Origin: Flavobacteriales bacterium
GTDB taxonomy: Bacteria > Bacteroidota > Bacteroidia > Flavobacteriales_D > CAJJDF01
DNA: 34,603 nt
Direction: 5' to 3'
NCBI GenBank assembly: GCA_020630395.1
Contig: JAHDBM010000016.1
Location: 23,654 to 58,256 of the forward strand
Part shown: one piece after another, positions 1 through 30,340 of the stretch
How the letters are laid out: the number at the start of each line of letters is the position of its first letter
Numbering within the stretch: position 1 is the first letter of the stretch
The notes under the pieces: generated by a model
Told to the model about the DNA's origin: nothing
Databases searched by the model: none
The model's input: only the letters and a program-made list of their open reading frames with translations
Made by a program: the position numbers and the translations under genes

Positions 1-1103
1 CCAACAACATTCATTCCGTCCATTAAAGGACCTTCAATTACTTCGATTGGTTTTTCAAACATTTGACGACACTCTTCTGCGTCTTCTTCAATAAAATCGG
101 TAATACCTTTTACTAATGAATGAGTTATTCTTTCTCTTACAGGATTGCTTCTCCATTCGAGTGTTACTTCTTTTTTCTTTCCAGTTCCTTTAACACTTTC
201 AGCATAATCTAGTAATACCTCAGTTGCATTATCATGTCTATTTAATAGAACATCTTCAACTTTATCGAGTAACTCTTTAGGAATTTCATCATAAATCTCG
301 AGCATTGTTGGGTTAACAATTCCCATGTCCATTCCGTTTTTAATGGCATGGTATAAGAACGCACTGTGCATAGCTTCACGAACCACATTATTACCTCTAA
401 AAGAGAACGAAACATTACTAACACCTCCACTAATTTTTGCTCCAGGAAGGTTTTCTTTTATCCATTTTGTGGCATTAAAAAAGTCAACTGCATAATTATT
501 ATGCTCCTCAATACCAGTGGCTACAGGAAATATATTAGGGTCAAAAATAATATCAGAAGCAGGAAATCCAACTTCATTTACCAAAATATCATACGATCGT
601 TTACAAATTTCAATTCTTCTATCGTAAGTATCTGCCTGCCCATCTTCATCAAAAGCCATTACAATAATAGCAGCTCCGTACATTTTTACTTTTGTAGCTT
701 GCTCTACAAAATTTTCTTTACCTTCTTTAAGGCTTATAGAGTTTACTACTCCTTTACCTTGAATACACTTTAATCCAGCCTCAATTACTTCCCATTTAGA
801 AGAATCAATCATAACAGGAATACGAGAAATATCGGGTTCGGCAGCAATAAGATTAAGAAACTTTACCATAGCTTCTTTACCATCTAGCATCCCTTCATCC
901 ATATTTACATCAAGGATTTGGGCTCCACCTTCTACTTGATCACGAGCAACAGACAAGGCTTCATCATATTTATCTTCTTTTATTAAGCGAAGAAACTTAC
1001 GAGAACCTGTAACATTTGTACGTTCACCAATATTAACAAAGTTTGTATGCTCGGTTATTACTAATGGTTCTAGACCTGATAATTTAAGGGTGTGTTTTGA
1101 CAT
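1..1103 (-). CDS. metH: Methionine synthase MetH, folate-binding part (truncated by window edge)
   Basis: My translation of the minus strand starts with [14 protein letters not shown] at 1103 and stays open for 367 codons to the left edge, so the 3' part is missing. The early motif [14 protein letters not shown] and the later segments [18 protein letters not shown] and [13 protein letters not shown] are those of the pterin-binding (methyltetrahydrofolate) TIM barrel of cobalamin-dependent methionine synthase. The last residues, around [13 protein letters not shown] and the following helices, enter the cap region that precedes the B12-binding domain. The homocysteine-binding domain is absent here and is encoded separately at 1919-2932, so MetH is split into two proteins. 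Known role of the family: transfer of the methyl group of 5-methyl-THF via cobalamin to homocysteine. It is the last visible gene of the SAM-riboswitch operon. Confidence 0.95.
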
Positions 1104-1392: not shown

Positions 1393-1833
1393 CTACATTA
1401 AAACACTCCAATCATCAGCTGTAGCATTACTTCCAACCCAGTCTCTAAATTGTTCTTTTCCTCCTCTTACTTTCCAATCGCTATCAATTGCTAGTTTAGC
1501 AGAAATTCCACCTCTGGGATTACAAATCATGCTTAATCGTAATCTTTCTGGTTCGTATGTTTCCATTAAATGATCGTACATGATATTAATTAGTCTTTCA
1601 TACGATACAACAATATCTCTTAAATGAAAAGCATAGTGTTTTAATGATTTTAATTCAATTATTTTTTTACCAGGATACATGGTTAAGTATACTGTTGCAA
1701 AATCTGGTTGCTGTTTAACTCCAAGAAAAGTAAATTCTGGAATTTTAATTTTGATCTCGTAAGCTTCTTTAGAAGGATTGGGAATAGCTTCTAAAATTGA
1801 CTTATCGATTTCTTTGTAAAGTTTTATTGCCAT
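1393..1833 (-). CDS. QueF-like T-fold protein lacking the nitrile-reductase catalytic residues
   Basis: A 146-residue protein clearly homologous to preQ0 reductase QueF: PEFTFLGVKQQPDFATVY (residues 32-49) aligns with the QueF PEFTSLC...GQPDFATIY block, IELKSLKHY with VESKSLKLY, and NPRGGIS with TPRGGIS. In QueF, a Cys in FTSLC forms the thioimide with the nitrile, and an Asp and a His assist. Here the Cys position is Gly38/Val39 with one residue deleted nearby, and the FHED His-Glu pair reads SYER, so His becomes Tyr78 while Glu79 is kept; Asp44 is also kept. Substrate binding may therefore survive, but canonical preQ0 reduction looks impossible. The protein ends shortly after the PRGGIS block. 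It sits between the two halves of metH, so a pterin or folate ligand is an attractive inference (T-fold enzymes bind purines and pterins), unproven. Confidence 0.85.
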   Translation of the reverse strand: MAIKLYKEIDKSILEAIPNPSKEAYEIKIKIPEFTFLGVKQQPDFATVYLTMYPGKKIIELKSLKHYAFHLRDIVVSYERLINIMYDHLMETYEPERLRLSMICNPRGGISAKLAIDSDWKVRGGKEQFRDWVGSNATADDWSVLM

Positions 1834-1918: not shown

Positions 1919-2932
1919 CTATGCTTCTTCTGTTTGAAGCATGTTTTTATTTCTTGGTTCATATTGTGCAGCTACTTCTGCTATAGCCTTAATATGATCA
2001 GGAGATGTTCCACAGCATCCACCAACAATATTAAGAAGTCCTTCATCTAAGAAGACTTTTATTTGTTTGGCCATATCACTAGGAGATTCATCATATTCTC
2101 CAAATTCATTAGGTAAACCTGCATTTGGGTGAGCACTAACGTTAAAGTTAGACTTGCCAGATAACGTTTGCAAATACGGTCTTAGTTCTTTTGCACCCAA
2201 AGCACAGTTTAATCCTACAGATGTTACAGGTGCATGTTCAATAGAGATTAAAAATGCTTCGGTTGTTTGTCCAGATAATGTTCTTCCACTGGCATCAGTT
2301 ATTGTACCCGAAACCATTATAGGAAGCTTAATATTAAGCTCATTATATACTTCCTGGATGGCGAAAAGAGCCGCTTTAGCATTTAATGTGTCAAAAACAG
2401 TTTCTACAAGTAAAATATCAACCCCACCTTTTATTAATGCTTTTGCTTGATCTTTATATGCATCTACTAATTGATCATAAGTTATCGCTCTGAAACCAGG
2501 GTTGTTTACATCTGGAGAAAGAGAAGCAGTTCTGTTAGTCGGTCCCATTGAACCAGCCACAAATCTTGGTTTATGAGGTTCTTTGGTTGTAAATTCTTTT
2601 GCAACTTCTTTTGCAATTTTTGCAGATTCATAATTAATATCCCAAACTGCCGATTCAAGGTTATAATCAGCTTGTGCAATCCATGTTCCACTAAATGTAT
2701 TTGTTTCTACAATATCTGCACCAGCTTCGAAATATTTAGCGTGTATAGCTTTTATAATTTCAGGGTGAGTAAGTGATAACAAGTCGTTATTTCCTTTTAG
2801 AGGAGACTCATGATCATCAAACCAACCTTTACGAAAGTCTTCCTCTTCTAGCTTGTACTGTTGAATCATAGTACCCATTGCCCCATCTAGTACCAGAATA
2901 CGTTTATTTAATTCTTCTTCGAATAATGTCAT
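1919..2932 (-). CDS. metH: Methionine synthase MetH, homocysteine-binding part
   Basis: A 337-residue homocysteine S-methyltransferase domain. It begins with [20 protein letters not shown], and the typical [30 protein letters not shown] and [15 protein letters not shown] blocks follow. The zinc/thiolate ligands are visible as Cys243 in GLNCALG and Cys306-Cys307 in GGCCGT. The protein stops after this barrel, so it supplies only the homocysteine-activation module; the folate module is separate (1-1103). An upstream in-frame ATG at 2962 would add ten residues, but it lies inside the riboswitch terminator hairpin, so the ATG at 2932 is chosen. The gene is the first of the SAM-I-riboswitch operon. 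In other Bacteroidota the two parts are also commonly separate genes. Confidence 0.95.
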
Positions 2933-2941
2933 TTGTATACA

Positions 2942-2976
2942 ATAAAAAAACCCTTTTAACATTCGTTAAAAGGGTT
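2942..2976 (-). terminator. Intrinsic terminator of the SAM-I riboswitch
   Basis: On the minus strand AACCCTTTTAAC pairs with GTTAAAAGGGTT (12 bp) around a four-base loop, followed directly by seven T. It lies between the aptamer and the metH start. The CTTATA just before the stem (2976-2981) can pair with the 3' strand of aptamer helix P1, giving a mutually exclusive antiterminator. High SAM should therefore stop transcription before metH. Confidence 0.88.
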
Positions 2977-3004
2977 ATAAGTTATTATCAATTTAGTAGT
3001 TTTT

Positions 3005-3107
3005 CTTATAGCTCTTTAGAATATCTAAAGTAGGATTTAGCACCTTTTCTTTTCAAGCAGGTTGCTAAGGTATCATTGGGCCTATTCCCTCCACCTTTCA
3101 ATATAAG
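3005..3107 (-). ncRNA. SAM-I (S-box) riboswitch aptamer
   Basis: Read on the minus strand, helix P1 is CTTATA (3107-3102) with TATAAG (3010-3005). Between them are the S-box hallmarks: AGGTGGAGGGA, GGCCC followed by AATGATACC, TTAGCAACC, and GGTGCTAAATCC. Order and spacing match the class I SAM riboswitch consensus of about 100 nt. It lies directly upstream of the split metH operon, with a terminator in between. Known function: binding of S-adenosylmethionine stabilises P1 and frees the terminator, switching off methionine synthesis genes. Confidence 0.93.
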
Positions 3108-3112
3108 TAAGC

Positions 3113-4693: not shown

Positions 4694-5091
4694 ATAATTT
4701 AACAATTGCTTACGGAATTTACATTGTATTAACAGCAGCTATTACCATTTGGGTAGCCAATTATTTATTTAAAAATGGTAAAATATTTTTATACAATGCC
4801 TTCAAAGGAAATGAAGCATTAGCAGATGCTATAAATAACCTCTTAAAAATGGGGTTTTATCTTGTGAATATTGGGTATGCTTTTAGTACAATTACAATCT
4901 CAAGTCATATATATGGAATAGATGATTTATTAAGAGTATTAGCCATTAAAATAGGGCTTATATTACTGATTTTAGGAGGTATGCATTTCTTTAATATGTT
5001 TATTTTATATAAGGTTGGAGCTTATATCAATAAAAGACAAGAAATGAAAGAGCTTAGAAAGTTAAAACGAATGCAATTAGACAAAAAATAG
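4690..5091 (+). CDS. Conserved-looking integral membrane protein
   Basis: A 133-residue protein with three likely transmembrane helices: about residues 5-27 (IAYGIYIVLTAAITIWVANY), 50-72 (MGFYLVNIGYAFSTITI) and 83-107 (VLAIKIGLILLILGGMHF). It ends in a strongly basic tail (KRQEMKELRKLKRMQLDKK) probably facing the cytoplasm. I cannot assign a family or function. It starts inside the stop of the upstream membrane gene (four-base overlap) and is followed six bases later by the TIGR01777 SDR gene. The tight spacing implies one transcript under the GbsR-like regulator. Confidence 0.8.
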   Translation: MNNLTIAYGIYIVLTAAITIWVANYLFKNGKIFLYNAFKGNEALADAINNLLKMGFYLVNIGYAFSTITISSHIYGIDDLLRVLAIKIGLILLILGGMHFFNMFILYKVGAYINKRQEMKELRKLKRMQLDKK

Positions 5092-5097
5092 CATGTT

Positions 5098-6015
5098 ATG
5101 AAAATTTTAATAGCAGGAGGTACAGGTTTTATAGGAAAAGAGTTAATATCATTTTTTTCAAAGAAAAATCATGAAATTCTTGTTCTTTCTAGATCGACTC
5201 CAAAACAAACTGCAAACGAAACCTATATTAAATGGGATAGTAAGACCCTTGGAGATTGGAAGTATATATTAAAAGATGTAGATGTACTTATAAATTTTGT
5301 GGGTAAAAGTGTAGATTGTCGGTATAACGAAAAGAATAAAAGAGAAATTTTAGATTCTAGAGTCCGTTCTGTTAAACTTTTAGAACAAGGATTTAAAGAC
5401 ATAAATCATCAACCAAAAGTTTGGATTAATTCCTCAACTGCAACAATATATAGGCATGAAACTTTCAAGCCAAATGATGAATACTCGACTAGAATAGGTG
5501 AAGGATTTTCAGTTAATGTAGCTAAGGCATGGGAAAAAGCTGTAGATGAAATTACATTAAATTGTAGAAAAGTTAAATTAAGAATTGCTATTGTGCTTGG
5601 AAACTCTGGAGGCGCATTTGTTCCATATAAAAAAATGGCCCAATTTGGTTTTGGAGGTAAACATGGTAATGGAGAACAATATTTTAGTTGGATTCATATT
5701 GCTGATTTGGTAAGTATTATTGATTTTTCTATTCATAACGAAAATGTTGAGGGAATAATAAATTGTGCTGCCCCTAAGCCAATAAAAAATAAAGCATTCA
5801 TGAACATACTACGAAAAAAAATGAGTGTTTCTATTGGTGTTTCATCTCCAAAATGGATATTAAAAGTTGGAGCGTTTTTATTAGGTACCGAAACAGAATT
5901 ATTATTGAAAAGTAGATGGGTTATTTCTGAAAGACTACCTAAATTAGGCTATAGTTTTATTTACCCAACACTTAAAGAAGCATTAAACAACCTAATTAAC
6001 AATGAAAGCGAATAA
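5098..6015 (+). CDS. TIGR01777-family SDR protein (NAD-dependent epimerase-like, YfcH type)
   Basis: A 305-residue extended short-chain dehydrogenase/reductase-like protein. The Rossmann nucleotide-binding motif GGTGFIG is at residues 7-13; the central VDVLINFVGKSVDCRYNEKNKREI block and INSSTATIYRH, with the active-site-like Tyr, are typical of the TIGR01777 (YfcH, DUF1731 C-terminus) family. FSWIHIADLV and the C-terminal sequence from about residue 250 (RWVISERLPKLGYSFIYP) match that family's end. Substrate is unknown for the family. In other bacteria these genes often sit near DCC-domain or photolyase genes; here the next gene overlaps by 14 bases and encodes a DCC protein. Length is normal for the family. 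Confidence 0.9.
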   Translation: MKILIAGGTGFIGKELISFFSKKNHEILVLSRSTPKQTANETYIKWDSKTLGDWKYILKDVDVLINFVGKSVDCRYNEKNKREILDSRVRSVKLLEQGFKDINHQPKVWINSSTATIYRHETFKPNDEYSTRIGEGFSVNVAKAWEKAVDEITLNCRKVKLRIAIVLGNSGGAFVPYKKMAQFGFGGKHGNGEQYFSWIHIADLVSIIDFSIHNENVEGIINCAAPKPIKNKAFMNILRKKMSVSIGVSSPKWILKVGAFLLGTETELLLKSRWVISERLPKLGYSFIYPTLKEALNNLINNESE

Positions 6016-7922: not shown

Positions 7923-7940
7923 TAATAGAAAAGAAGTATT

Positions 7941-8279
7941 ATGGATTTTGAGTTTGATAAAAAATGGAGAGATTTAGTTGCGGAGTTATCTGCTTATCAA
8001 GATGAGCCATTAGATCTTCAGTCGGTATTATTTTTAATAGGAATACAAGAGTTAAACAAAGGATTTTTAAAACTAAATAAAGATCAAAAGTTAGAAGTAA
8101 TGCATATTGCTGTATGTACATTAATGGAACCTTATGGTTTTTATGAATATTCGGGGCATGATGATGACGGATGGCCTCATTATGAGGCAAAAAAAAATCT
8201 CCCGAATTTAAATTCGAGAGATCAAGAACGTTTTATGAAGCAAGCAATATTAGATTACTTCGATAAAGAAAAAGCTTAA
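7941..8279 (+). CDS. Conserved hypothetical cytosolic protein
   Basis: A 112-residue protein (MDFEFDKKWRDLVAELSAYQ...), predicted all-helical and soluble, with no signal peptide or transmembrane segment. The central block LFLIGIQELNKGF...KLEVMHIAVCTLMEPYGFYEYSGHDDDGWPHY looks highly conserved; I recall similar uncharacterised proteins across Flavobacteriia, but cannot name a function. The last third also carries, on the other strand, a strong intrinsic terminator for the convergent lipoprotein gene, so those codons (AKKNLPNLNSRDQ) serve two purposes. The stop overlaps the convergent stop by four bases. Confidence 0.8.
   Translation: MDFEFDKKWRDLVAELSAYQDEPLDLQSVLFLIGIQELNKGFLKLNKDQKLEVMHIAVCTLMEPYGFYEYSGHDDDGWPHYEAKKNLPNLNSRDQERFMKQAILDYFDKEKA
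8189..8222 (-). terminator. Intrinsic terminator embedded in the convergent gene
   Basis: On the minus strand ATCTC-T-CGAATTT pairs with AAATTCG-G-GAGAT (12 bp, one mismatch), followed by a run of about nine T counting the last stem base. It lies about 54 bases past the stop of the lipoprotein gene at 8276-8638 and entirely inside the coding sequence of the plus-strand gene at 7941-8279. Confidence 0.82.
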
Positions 8280-15074: not shown

Positions 15075-18000
15075 TTGAAAAAAGAAGTCTTGAAAAAAGC
15101 CTTAGTTCACATACTCATTTTTCTTACTTTAGTAACTGTTGGATTTTCTCAAGATGAAACACCAATACGCTTTCAACACTTAGGAATTCAAGAAGGACTA
15201 TCTCAGTCTTCTGTTTTTGATGTCGTTCAAGATCATTATGGTTTTGTATGGATAGCAACTCAAGATGGCCTTAACAAATATGACGGTAAAAACATCACCA
15301 CTTTTTATCATGCTCAATTTGATAGTAATACAATACTTTCTAACACGATAAACTGTTTATTAGTAGACGAAAAAAGAGATCTTTTGTGGGTTGGTACTGA
15401 AAGAGGGTTAAACACTATTGATTTTAAATCTAATAAAATCAGTAGTTTATTATTTGGTAATCATAAATATGGAGCAATTGAAGCTATTGTAAAAGATAGT
15501 ATAGGTAATATATGGATTAATGCTAAAAATAAAGGGGTTGTAAAATATACTGATGATGGAGTTAAAACGGTTATTAAAAGTAATCCTACTTCAATTATTA
15601 TATATAAAAATGAATTAATAGCTTCATTTAATAACCAATCATTTTCTATTGATATTCAAACAGATAGTGTAATTACTAAGCGTGAGTATAAAAACTTATT
15701 ATATGTAGCTGAAAGTAAGTTTGGTGTTTTTTATTTAAGTAATAATAGCATTCTATTTTCTTACAAACATAAAACACCAATAGATTTAGTAAAACGATTT
15801 AAATTACTCGAAAATAAAACATTTACAAAAATTTTGGTAGATGGTAATCATTGTTGGATTGGTACTGAGCAACACGGCTTATTCCATTATGATATTCAAG
15901 CCAATAATGTAGAGAATTACCAATACAAAGAAAATATTAAATACACTATTTCAGATAATTATATACGATCAATTTATAAGGATTATGCAGGTACTATATG
16001 GATAGGAACTGATAATGGAGGGATTAGCTTTTTTGACTTTACTAAACAAAACATAAAATATTTAGGCAAAGGAGATAATGGTCTTTCGAGTAAAATAGTA
16101 TGGGCAATTGAGGGAGATGAATATGGAAATGTTTTTATTGGAACGAATACAGGGTTAGATATTTATAATCAATTTAAACAAACGATATCTAATTATACCA
16201 TCAATGATGGTAAGTCTTCTACTGTAAGATCTGTTATTGCTAAAGATCAGTTATTGGTAGGTACAGACGAAAGCTTCTATAAAGTAAATATTAATGGATC
16301 AAAACTATTGTTTATAGACCTTTTTAAGGGAATAAAAGACTCCTTACTTCAAGATATTGCAATTTATACGATTACTCCATATAAAAAAAATGAATATTGG
16401 CTTGGTACTAGCAAAGGCCTTATACGATTTGATACTAAAAATAAATCGTACACATGTTTTAATCGAAAAACATCTAATATTTCAAATGAAGTTGTTAGAG
16501 CGATATATAAATCAGAAAAAGGGGATTGGTGGATTGGTACCGAAGGAGGTTTAAATAGAATGTTTGTTGTTAATGATACTGTTAGTACTTTTTCTTCTTT
16601 TTTACCAGGAAATAACCCTAATACAATTAGCGGCTCAATAGTAACTACTATTATAGAAGATGATAGTAATTTTATATGGGTAGGCACTTATGATGGAGCA
16701 TTAAATAGATACAACCCGGTTAATAGAACATTTAAAAACTACTCTGTTAAAGATGGTCTATCTAATAATGCGGTATATGGTATTTTAAAAACAGATTCTT
16801 TATTATGGGTTAGTACAAACAGAGGTATTTCATCTTTAAACTTAAATACCAAAGAGTTTAGGAACTTTTACGAATCTGATGGATTACAAAGTAATGAGTT
16901 TAATACAGGAGCATTTTATAAGACTAAATACGGAGAATTATTTTTTGGAGGAATTAACGGAGTTAGTAATTTTTATCCTACAGATTTAAAAAAGAACAAG
17001 CAGTCTCCATTAATGGGGCTAACTAAAATTTTAGTAAACAATAAACCGCTAAATACCTTAAGTAATTACGAGAATAAAAGTTTAAACGGAATTGAAGTAG
17101 TTGAATTTAACTACACACAAAACAACATTAATATCCATTTTGCTAGTTTACATTATACGAATACGCAGAATAATAAATACCGTTATTTTATAAGAGAACT
17201 TCAAGACACCTCATTAATAATAGATAAAATAGGTGTTGCCAATTACTCTGCTTTATCTCCAGGAGAATATAATCTAGTTGTTTATGGAAGTAATTCTGAT
17301 GGGGTTTGGAGTGAGCAACCGCTAACATTAAAAATTATTATTCATCCACCATTTTGGGGCACATGGTTATTTAGAATATTTGTAATAGGGCTTATAGGTT
17401 TAATTGTGTTTTTTATTATTCGTTTTCGAATTAGATCGGTAAAAAAGAGTAAAGCGTTACTTGAATCATTGGTTAAAAGAAGAACAGAGACTATTTTTAA
17501 GCAAAAGGAACAAATAGAAAAACAGAATAAAGATTTAGAGAAAGAGAAAGAGAAGGCAGACAATGTTTTACATAAAATTTTTCCAGATAAAATTGCTCAA
17601 AAATTAAAAAATAAAGGAAAAGTAAAGGCAGAACATTATCAACAAGCTACTATTATGTTTGCCGATTTCGTTTCTTTTTCTTCTATATCGAGTAAGCTTA
17701 AGCCAGAGGAAACGGTAAGTCAATTAAACCGATATTTTAAAGAATTCGATAAGATTATCATTAGAAATAATTTAGTTCAAATTAAAACTATTGGCGATTC
17801 GTATATGACAGCTGCAGGTATTCCAAAAAGTAATAATACTAATGCTATTGATTCTGTTCTTGCAGGTTTGCAAATACAATCTTACATGCAAAATTTGTAT
17901 GAAGAAGATAATACGAATTGGAGGTTAAGAGTAGGAATTAATACAGGAGAGTTAGTAGCAGGTGTCTTAGAAACCAAAAGGCCACTATATGACATTTGGG

Positions 18001-18827
18001 GGAGCTCAGTTAACATTGCAAGCCGAGTTCAAGATGAAGGAAAACCAGGAAAAGTTAATATATCTGAACATACCTACAGAATTATAAAACCATTTTTTAA
18101 TTGCTCTGCAAGAGGAGGCATAATGACAAAGAATGTTGGTGTAATTAGCATGTATTTTGTAGATGGAATTAGATCAGAATTATCTCAAGATGGTGAAGGT
18201 AAATTTCCGAATAGAAGATTTTGGAGTTATGTTAAAACATATCTAGAAAGTGAATTAAGATATAATGAGTTAGAGCATGATTTCATTAAGTATTTAAGAG
18301 ATAATTTAGATAAAAATTTACATTACCATTCATTACATCATACTATTGATGTTATTGATGCTGCGGAAAGAATTGCCTTAGCTGAAGGTGTTTTTGATGA
18401 ACGTATGTTATTGATTAAAACAGCAGCACTTATTCATGATGCTGGTTTTATTAAGCAGTATAACAACAATGAACCTGTAGGGGTTGAGTATGCTAAAGAA
18501 TGGCTTCCAAAATATGGCTATAGTGCTAAACAAATAGATAAAGTGTCAGAATTAATTTTAGCCACTAATGTAAGCCACAAGCCTAAAAACAAACTGCAAA
18601 GAATTATTAAAGATGCTGATTTAGATTATTTAGGCAGAGATGACTTCGAATCTATAAGCGATAAACTTTTTATGGAGTTACAAGAAAGGGGTATAGTTGA
18701 AACCAAAGAAGAATGGGATAAAATGCAGGTGAAGTTTTTTAACACCCATCAGTTTTATACAGCATACTCTAAAGATCGAAGGGCAAAAAAAAAAGAATTA
18801 AATAAGCCTTTTTTAGCTAATGTCTAA
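15075..18827 (+). CDS. Propeller sensor fused to adenylate cyclase and HD phosphodiesterase-like domain
   Basis: A 1250-residue membrane protein. Signal peptide about 1-25. Residues about 30-660 carry some eleven propeller motifs of the two-component-regulator type (WIATQDGLNKYDG, WVGTERGLN, WIGTEQHGLFHYD, WLGTSKGLIRF, WIGTEGGLNRM ...), then a Y_Y_Y domain to about 757. One transmembrane helix follows (about 763-784), then a charged coiled coil to about 840. The class III cyclase domain (about 855-1000) has metal Asp864 (FADF) and Asp908 (IGDSY), adenine-specifying Lys904 (KTIGD) and Asp973 (YDIWG), and Asn980/Arg984 (VNIASR), so adenylate cyclase activity is predicted. The last 180 residues hold an HD domain: H1085-x3-H1089 (YHSLHHTIDV), H1121-D1122 (ALIHD), Asp1182. 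The start is TTG at 15075 after AAAGGA, immediately behind an in-frame TAA; there is no ATG nearby. A typical histidine kinase core is absent. Confidence 0.93.
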   Translation: MKKEVLKKALVHILIFLTLVTVGFSQDETPIRFQHLGIQEGLSQSSVFDVVQDHYGFVWIATQDGLNKYDGKNITTFYHAQFDSNTILSNTINCLLVDEKRDLLWVGTERGLNTIDFKSNKISSLLFGNHKYGAIEAIVKDSIGNIWINAKNKGVVKYTDDGVKTVIKSNPTSIIIYKNELIASFNNQSFSIDIQTDSVITKREYKNLLYVAESKFGVFYLSNNSILFSYKHKTPIDLVKRFKLLENKTFTKILVDGNHCWIGTEQHGLFHYDIQANNVENYQYKENIKYTISDNYIRSIYKDYAGTIWIGTDNGGISFFDFTKQNIKYLGKGDNGLSSKIVWAIEGDEYGNVFIGTNTGLDIYNQFKQTISNYTINDGKSSTVRSVIAKDQLLVGTDESFYKVNINGSKLLFIDLFKGIKDSLLQDIAIYTITPYKKNEYWLGTSKGLIRFDTKNKSYTCFNRKTSNISNEVVRAIYKSEKGDWWIGTEGGLNRMFVVNDTVSTFSSFLPGNNPNTISGSIVTTIIEDDSNFIWVGTYDGALNRYNPVNRTFKNYSVKDGLSNNAVYGILKTDSLLWVSTNRGISSLNLNTKEFRNFYESDGLQSNEFNTGAFYKTKYGELFFGGINGVSNFYPTDLKKNKQSPLMGLTKILVNNKPLNTLSNYENKSLNGIEVVEFNYTQNNINIHFASLHYTNTQNNKYRYFIRELQDTSLIIDKIGVANYSALSPGEYNLVVYGSNSDGVWSEQPLTLKIIIHPPFWGTWLFRIFVIGLIGLIVFFIIRFRIRSVKKSKALLESLVKRRTETIFKQKEQIEKQNKDLEKEKEKADNVLHKIFPDKIAQKLKNKGKVKAEHYQQATIMFADFVSFSSISSKLKPEETVSQLNRYFKEFDKIIIRNNLVQIKTIGDSYMTAAGIPKSNNTNAIDSVLAGLQIQSYMQNLYEEDNTNWRLRVGINTGELVAGVLETKRPLYDIWGSSVNIASRVQDEGKPGKVNISEHTYRIIKPFFNCSARGGIMTKNVGVISMYFVDGIRSELSQDGEGKFPNRRFWSYVKTYLESELRYNELEHDFIKYLRDNLDKNLHYHSLHHTIDVIDAAERIALAEGVFDERMLLIKTAALIHDAGFIKQYNNNEPVGVEYAKEWLPKYGYSAKQIDKVSELILATNVSHKPKNKLQRIIKDADLDYLGRDDFESISDKLFMELQERGIVETKEEWDKMQVKFFNTHQFYTAYSKDRRAKKKELNKPFLANV

Positions 18828-29620: not shown

Positions 29621-30340
29621 GTGATACAAGAATACAATAATTATACTCAAGAAGATTTTGAAGTTTGGCGATTGCTTTTCGAAAGACAAGAACAAAACCT
29701 CCAAAATAAGGCTTGTAAGCGATACTTAGCTTGTATAAACGAAATGAGCGAAGTAATGCGAGCTAATGAAGTACCTAATTTCGAAAAAATAAACAAGGTA
29801 CTACTAGCTAAGAGTGGTTGGAGTATCCATGTAGTGCCTGGCTTAATACCAGTAGAAGGTTTTTTTCAGTTACTAGCAAAAAAGAAGTTTAGTGCTTCTA
29901 CTTGGTTACGTAAAAAGTCTCAATTAGATTATTTAGAAGAGCCAGATATGTTTCATGATGTATTTGGACATATCCCATTATTAATGGATAAGGAGTATAG
30001 TGCTTTTGCACAAAAACTAGGAGAAGTTGGAGTGAAATACATTGATAATCCAGAAATTGTGCTACAACTACAAAGATTATATTGGTTTACCATAGAGTTT
30101 GGTCTTAAAGCGGGAGAAACCCAAACAGATATATATGGTGCAGGTATTCTATCTAGTTATGGAGAATCGAAGGGCATTTACACTACAAACCCTGAAATAA
30201 AACCCTATAATTTTAGTTCTATTATTAATCAACCGTTTCGAACGGATCAAATTCAAACGCTTTACTTTGAGATTGAATCGTATGAGCAATTATACGATTC
30301 ATTAAATGAATTTGATAGAAACATGCAACAACAAGGTTAA
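29621..30340 (+). CDS. phhA: Phenylalanine 4-monooxygenase
   Basis: A 239-residue aromatic amino-acid hydroxylase. The iron ligands are visible: His112 and His117 in FHDVFGHIPLL, and Glu159 in YWFTIEFGL. GWSIHVVPGLIPVEGFFQLLA precedes them, and GAGILSSYGE follows, all typical of bacterial phenylalanine hydroxylase, which makes tyrosine from phenylalanine with tetrahydropterin and oxygen. It has only the catalytic domain (no ACT domain), normal for bacteria. The start is GTG at 29621; the next in-frame ATG is at residue 42 and too late. The stop is one base before the ATG of the Rieske-like lipoprotein gene. Confidence 0.95.
   Translation: MIQEYNNYTQEDFEVWRLLFERQEQNLQNKACKRYLACINEMSEVMRANEVPNFEKINKVLLAKSGWSIHVVPGLIPVEGFFQLLAKKKFSASTWLRKKSQLDYLEEPDMFHDVFGHIPLLMDKEYSAFAQKLGEVGVKYIDNPEIVLQLQRLYWFTIEFGLKAGETQTDIYGAGILSSYGESKGIYTTNPEIKPYNFSSIINQPFRTDQIQTLYFEIESYEQLYDSLNEFDRNMQQQG

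Follow-up and report, generated by a model that had tools for sequence, protein, structure and literature searches.

Between the two halves of a methionine synthase gene (metH) in a Flavobacteriales genome lies a short gene whose product resembles QueF, the preQ0 reductase of queuosine synthesis, and lacks the cysteine on which that enzyme depends. What such a protein does in this position is the question raised by the window analyzed here, that is, the whole stretch of 34,603 nucleotides (GenBank assembly GCA_020630395.1, contig JAHDBM010000016.1, positions 23,654 to 58,256). The initial annotation, made from the sequence alone, took the protein for a repurposed QueF paralogue with a role in folate or pterin handling or in MetH function, outside queuosine synthesis.

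The QueF-like protein and its operon

The QueF-like protein is real, as judged from its open reading frame (Table 1) and from its matches to the Pfam QueF profile (PF14489; 57 bits, cut-off 27.3) and to NCBIfam QueF-II (TIGR03139; 85.3 bits, slightly below the 86.9 cut-off). Only QueF models matched it; the MetF/MTHFR profile (PF02219) did not. In the alignment with B. subtilis QueF, Cys55 is replaced by Gly38 and Gly59 is deleted, and Asp62 (D44), Glu78 (E60), Lys83 (K65), Arg90 (R72) and Glu97 (E79) are kept, bearing out the initial description of a replaced catalytic cysteine with one residue lost nearby and of a retained acid and base-recognition residue. In QueF, Glu97 anchors preQ0, and the thioimide-forming cysteine is the defining residue, such that sequences without it are excluded from QueF (PMC5372742). 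The window protein therefore falls outside QueF by the catalytic Cys55 and agrees with it in Asp62, Glu97, the NADPH motif with Glu78 and the T-fold. The loss of a histidine, also singled out at first as telling, carries no weight because the 26 canonical Bacteroidota QueFs compared here have Phe (17) or Tyr (9) at the position of His96, and His in none; it was rejected as a mark of the family, and His96 is not among the residues that define QueF (PMC5372742).

An AlphaFold2 model of the protein, of moderate confidence and for the monomer only (pLDDT 73.7, pTM 0.72), is a T-fold that Foldseek matches to the QueF-preQ0 complex 4fgc at 2e-10. By structural comparison (VIA Z), QueF 4fgc (15.3) is closer than the archaeosine synthase QueF-Like (13.9) and FolE (13.3).

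The gene order, SAM riboswitch, metH-N, QueF-like gene, metH-C, upholds the reading of a SAM-regulated methionine operon with the gene between the MetH halves (Table 1), and a SAM riboswitch leader also precedes all seven further metH-type loci examined. The metH-C gene runs past the window end, and its B12-binding and activation domains lie in flanking sequence that includes a masked run of N.

Table 1. Features of the metH operon and of the QueF-like gene in the window
Feature	Position	Strand	Basis
SAM riboswitch (RF00162) at the head of the operon metH-N / QueF-like / metH-C	3003..3109	minus	85.6 bits
metH N-terminal half: homocysteine S-methyltransferase domain (PF02574)	1919..2962	minus	domain search
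Cys-less QueF-family (T-fold) protein, 146 aa; candidate T-fold 5,10-methylenetetrahydrofolate reductase	1393..1833	minus	ORF, profile matches, alignment, model
Codon for D44 (Asp62 in B. subtilis QueF), candidate general acid	1702..1704	minus	invariant 55/55; counted from start codon at 1833
QueF/NADPH motif ELKSLKHY (E60-Y67)	1633..1656	minus	alignment; motif as defined in PMC5372742
Codon of E79 (= QueF Glu97), proposed 2-amino-4-oxo ring anchor	1597..1599	minus	invariant 55/55; counted from start codon at 1833
metH C-terminal half, gene start (Pterin_bind PF00809, B12-binding_2)	1..1103	minus	domain search

Elsewhere in the window, two genes were noted by eye: a 1250-aa protein (15075-18827, plus strand) that seems to combine, in an unusual way, a beta-propeller sensor with a nucleotide-cyclase-like domain and, at its C terminus, an HD-like domain, and an ORF resembling pterin-dependent phenylalanine 4-hydroxylase (29621-30340, plus strand).

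The host genome contains MetH and DHFR, and profile searches of it found no canonical QueF, QueC, MetF or MetE. The term paralogue had to be dropped, the QueF-like gene being the sole QueF homologue of its host. A weaker PF14489 match (24.5 bits) in the host, to a 210-aa ORF (G000:C28), is read as a putative GTP cyclohydrolase I.

Conservation and genomic neighbours of the family

Scanning of genome contigs yielded 55 homologous loci, 51-87% identical, in Bacteroidota (Crocinitomicaceae, Cyclobacteriaceae/Flammeovirgaceae, Chitinophagaceae, and genomes labelled Saprospiraceae and Marinilabiliaceae) and further in Syntrophorhabdus-like "Deltaproteobacteria", Marinimicrobia, and single bins labelled Chlorobiota and Saccharospirillaceae; these names are partly labels of metagenome-assembled genomes and may be wrong. 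Crocinitomix algicola is among the organisms with a homologue (L044), and two identical copies (L082, L083) occur on separate contigs of Anaerophaga thermohalophila DSM 12881. The position of the QueF cysteine is Gly in all 55 homologues, compared with Cys in 26/26 canonical Bacteroidota QueFs. D44 and E79 are invariant (55/55), the motif E60-LKSLK is invariant or nearly so, and the family has invariant residues of its own (A24, E26, K28, F36, G38, Y53, S77, Y78, R80, R97, R99), along with a peculiar C-terminal motif, DSDWxxRGG. A tree separates the Cys-less variant from canonical QueF at 100/100. When the family profile was run against 392 Bacteroidota genomes of high completeness, the two members there scored 273 and 265 bits, and canonical QueF no more than 78. 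The Cys-less proteins thus form a discrete, highly conserved family, and such strong conservation in the absence of the cysteine points to a working protein with a different job.

Compared with unimodular QueF (TIGR03139; B. subtilis, PDB 4f8b/4fgc), the family shares the T-fold, the motif E(S/L)K(S/A)hK, the equivalents of Glu97 and Asp62 and the PRGGIS segment, and differs not only in the residues and motif described above but also in its methionine/folate operons and in its hosts, most of which lack QueC.

The expectation that Cys-less homologues would always adjoin metH or metF holds in part: a split metH is the setting of 34 of the 55 loci, and 10 more are found at other folate or methionine genes, but 7 adjoin mnmH and 4 lie next to none of the neighbour genes examined. 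At the six "delta" loci, thyX is directly 5' of the QueF-like gene (gap 18-31 bp), and at L080 and L085 the gene adjoins methyl-THF:corrinoid methyltransferases. In Paraflavitalea (L077), the QueF-like gene has a cystathionine-synthase-like gene on one side, homoserine dehydrogenase on the other and a SAM riboswitch of its own upstream; the same two neighbours recur in another genome (G400, L103). At L079, a cobalamin riboswitch (7932-8151) separates the QueF-like gene from the adjacent metE; another cobalamin riboswitch (4967-5179) stands 5' of an anaerobic-ribonucleotide-reductase-like gene (by eye) that directly precedes the QueF-like gene. Because two such riboswitches flank the neighbourhood of this gene, B12 control of the L079 member is suggested. 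The metE, thyX and corrinoid-methyltransferase contexts are all without a neighbouring metH, and methylene-THF and methyl-THF are the theme common to the folate-related neighbours.

At L081-L084, L069, L076 and L078, which are loci of Marinilabiliaceae-type genomes and of a single Chlorobiota-labelled bin, the mnmH gene (tRNA 2-selenouridine synthase) is located 3' of the QueF-like gene.

Absence and decay of metF in carriers

MetF (PF02219) was not found in any of the eight carriers of the QueF-like gene among 100 related genomes. When the comparison is restricted to the 84 MetH-positive relatives, MetF is present in 0/8 carriers versus 73/76 non-carriers (Fisher p 4e-9) and, counted by genus, in 0/4 versus 39/39 (p 8e-6); G002 and G003 were scored as MetH-positive since the metH-C of each runs off its contig. 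The three MetH-positive non-carriers without MetF (G018, G022, G080) are fragmented assemblies, and one of the carriers (G099) lacks MetF in a single-contig, 99%-complete genome. MetE was found in none of the 100 relatives.

Among non-carriers, loss of MetF usually extends to MetH, which is also missing from 13 of the 16 MetF-less relatives and from 11 of 13 in a wider sample. Carriers keep it, in 8/8 cases among the relatives (two cut by contig ends) and in 22 of 24 further MetF-less carriers. The two exceptions in the wider sample, G521 and G347, are high-completeness Bacteroidota with MetH matches and with neither MetF nor the QueF-like gene, and possibly harbour further MetF replacements, are auxotrophs or have decaying pathways. 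In the 392-genome Bacteroidota sample, the base rate of genomes without MetF is 14/392, and the two carriers are too few for statistics within that sample.

Searches of 50 carrier genomes found 27 without a MetF match and 3 with a metF bearing several stops or frameshifts, the rest having an intact gene or a divergent homologue. The three pseudogenes (L099, L100, L101) represent successive stages of decay, and at L060 just a C-terminal stump of metF is left between metH-C and an HMG-CoA-lyase-like gene (named by eye), at a position where L068 has an intact metF. The divergent homologues belong to the six "delta" carriers (131-140 bits). Intact metF persists in 13 carriers (Bacteroidota and one Chlorobiota-labelled bin), Marinoscillum pacificum being one carrier with a retained metF, and the QueF-like gene is therefore not always a metF substitute. 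The metH-C tree calls for four or more changes of metF state, or for about nine losses if metF was never regained, a hand count made less certain by forks of the tree that are unresolved; because carriers are related, independent losses are fewer than genomes. A folate-dependent methionine synthase maintained without MetF is what a functional MTHFR should allow, and both the MetF distribution and the pseudogenes display this pattern. Co-occurrence and decay alike agree with the QueF-like gene making metF dispensable.

Proposed reaction and alternative explanations

We propose, with good though not full confidence, that the Cys-less QueF-like protein is a flavin-independent, NADPH-dependent T-fold 5,10-methylenetetrahydrofolate reductase, an activity that we infer from conserved residues and genomic context. 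It would supply 5-methyl-THF to the methionine synthase encoded on both its sides. In the proposed mechanism, E79 would grip the 2-amino-4-oxo-pyrimidine of the pterin much as Glu97 holds preQ0 in QueF, D44 would act as the general acid that opens the imidazolidine ring and so yields the 5-iminium ion, and NADPH bound at the kept ELKSLK motif would deliver a hydride to the exocyclic methylene on N5 of the folate. Judged from the chemical structures, the carbon that QueF reduces in preQ0 is attached to C7 and peri to O6, whereas in the folate N5 carries the methylene, which is peri to O4; these positions are equivalent relative to the anchored pyrimidine ring, so that one pocket could place both reactive carbons. 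Loss of the cysteine would be expected, because QueF needs its cysteine to convert the nitrile to a thioimide that can be reduced, and an iminium ion already accepts hydride.

Parts of this scheme have counterparts in known systems. In the T-fold pterin enzymes FolE and FolB, a carboxylate anchors the pterin ring; their identity to the Cys-less family is low (about 8-17%), their reactions are others and they have no NADPH motif. MetF/MTHFR, Mfr and Mer would share with the family the reaction, the substrate and the place in methionine operons, but they are (beta-alpha)8 barrels whereas the T-fold protein is half as long, and no sequence relation was detected. All three barrel enzymes protonate their substrate to the 5-iminium ion before hydride transfer, a carboxylate of E. 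coli MTHFR binds N3 and the 2-amino group, and Mfr, known from mycobacteria only, reduces methylene-THF without flavin by direct hydride transfer from NAD(P)H (PMC11094777). QueF-Like (PDB 5jyx) is likewise a repurposed QueF-family T-fold; it retains the cysteine and the thioimide and acts on preQ0-tRNA (PMC5485725), whereas the Cys-less family has no cysteine at that position.

The original idea of folate or pterin handling or MetH function stands as far as a folate/methionine role is concerned, as does that of a repurposed QueF; specific replacement of MetF is favoured over general pterin handling or help to MetH. One could still picture an accessory, non-catalytic folate- or pterin-binding protein that serves MetH by methyl-THF delivery, protection or channelling between the halves, with another MTHFR behind the MetF losses. 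The constant position between the MetH halves would suit such a protein, loss of a nucleophile often means loss of catalysis, and some carriers do keep MetF. We consider it unlikely, as loss of MetF tracks the gene, members stand beside metE, thyX or methyl-THF methyltransferases with no metH adjacent, the conserved NADPH motif, Asp and Glu would be superfluous for mere binding, and a second, undiscovered gene would be needed. The pairing with ThyX raises a different prospect, some other oxidoreductase or enzyme of C1-folates, for example a dihydrofolate or dihydropterin reductase. The six "delta" genomes (G129, G130, G131, G132, G138, G140) have QueC, no canonical QueF and no FolA, with thyX directly upstream of the gene, and FolA is missing from all examined genomes of these tightly linked loci. 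As a general role, substitution for DHFR was rejected since 40 of 53 carriers, the host included, have FolA, and any such folate enzyme is improbable for a gene that tracks metF loss and adjoins users of methyl-THF.

Least probable, in our estimate, is a divergent, Cys-independent preQ0 reductase that serves queuosine synthesis in tRNA, with preQ0 either salvaged or made by the cell itself. Membership of the QueF family by both sequence and fold would favour it, as would the presence of Tgt in 24 of 25 carriers examined, through which salvaged preQ0 could in principle serve as substrate; and in the six "delta" carriers, QueC-positive and without another QueF found, a preQ0 role is possible. 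But the residue that defines the thioimide chemistry (PMC5372742) is Gly throughout the family, and QueC, present in "delta", Marinilabiliaceae and Chlorobiota-labelled carriers, is missing from 39 of 53, including the host and all nine with quality figures. The four carriers with a second, longer QueF are all QueC-positive, and the operons are methionine/folate operons led by SAM riboswitches. The initial placement of the protein outside queuosine synthesis is thereby upheld.

Returning to methylenetetrahydrofolate reduction, the QueF-like protein probably replaces MetF in carriers and would have displaced it in several lineages, a reading that draws support from co-occurrence and pseudogenes, from the operon context in several phyla, and from riboswitch control and conserved chemistry. 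It also appears likely that the family represents a further, non-homologous class of MTHFR, flavin-free, built on the T-fold through loss of the QueF cysteine, distributed over several phyla, read as preQ1 synthase and repeatedly permitting the loss of metF. A literature search, with preprints and most subscription journals outside its scope, showed among the matches listed no earlier report linking the QueF family to this reaction. If the proposal is true, an essential C1 reaction gains a new fold and the T-fold superfamily an activity, a likely misannotation as preQ1 synthase is corrected, and it becomes clear how a QueF could lose its cysteine and yet be highly conserved across phyla. MetH without MetF is a hole in the methionine pathway, and in the cases found here the QueF-like gene would fill it.
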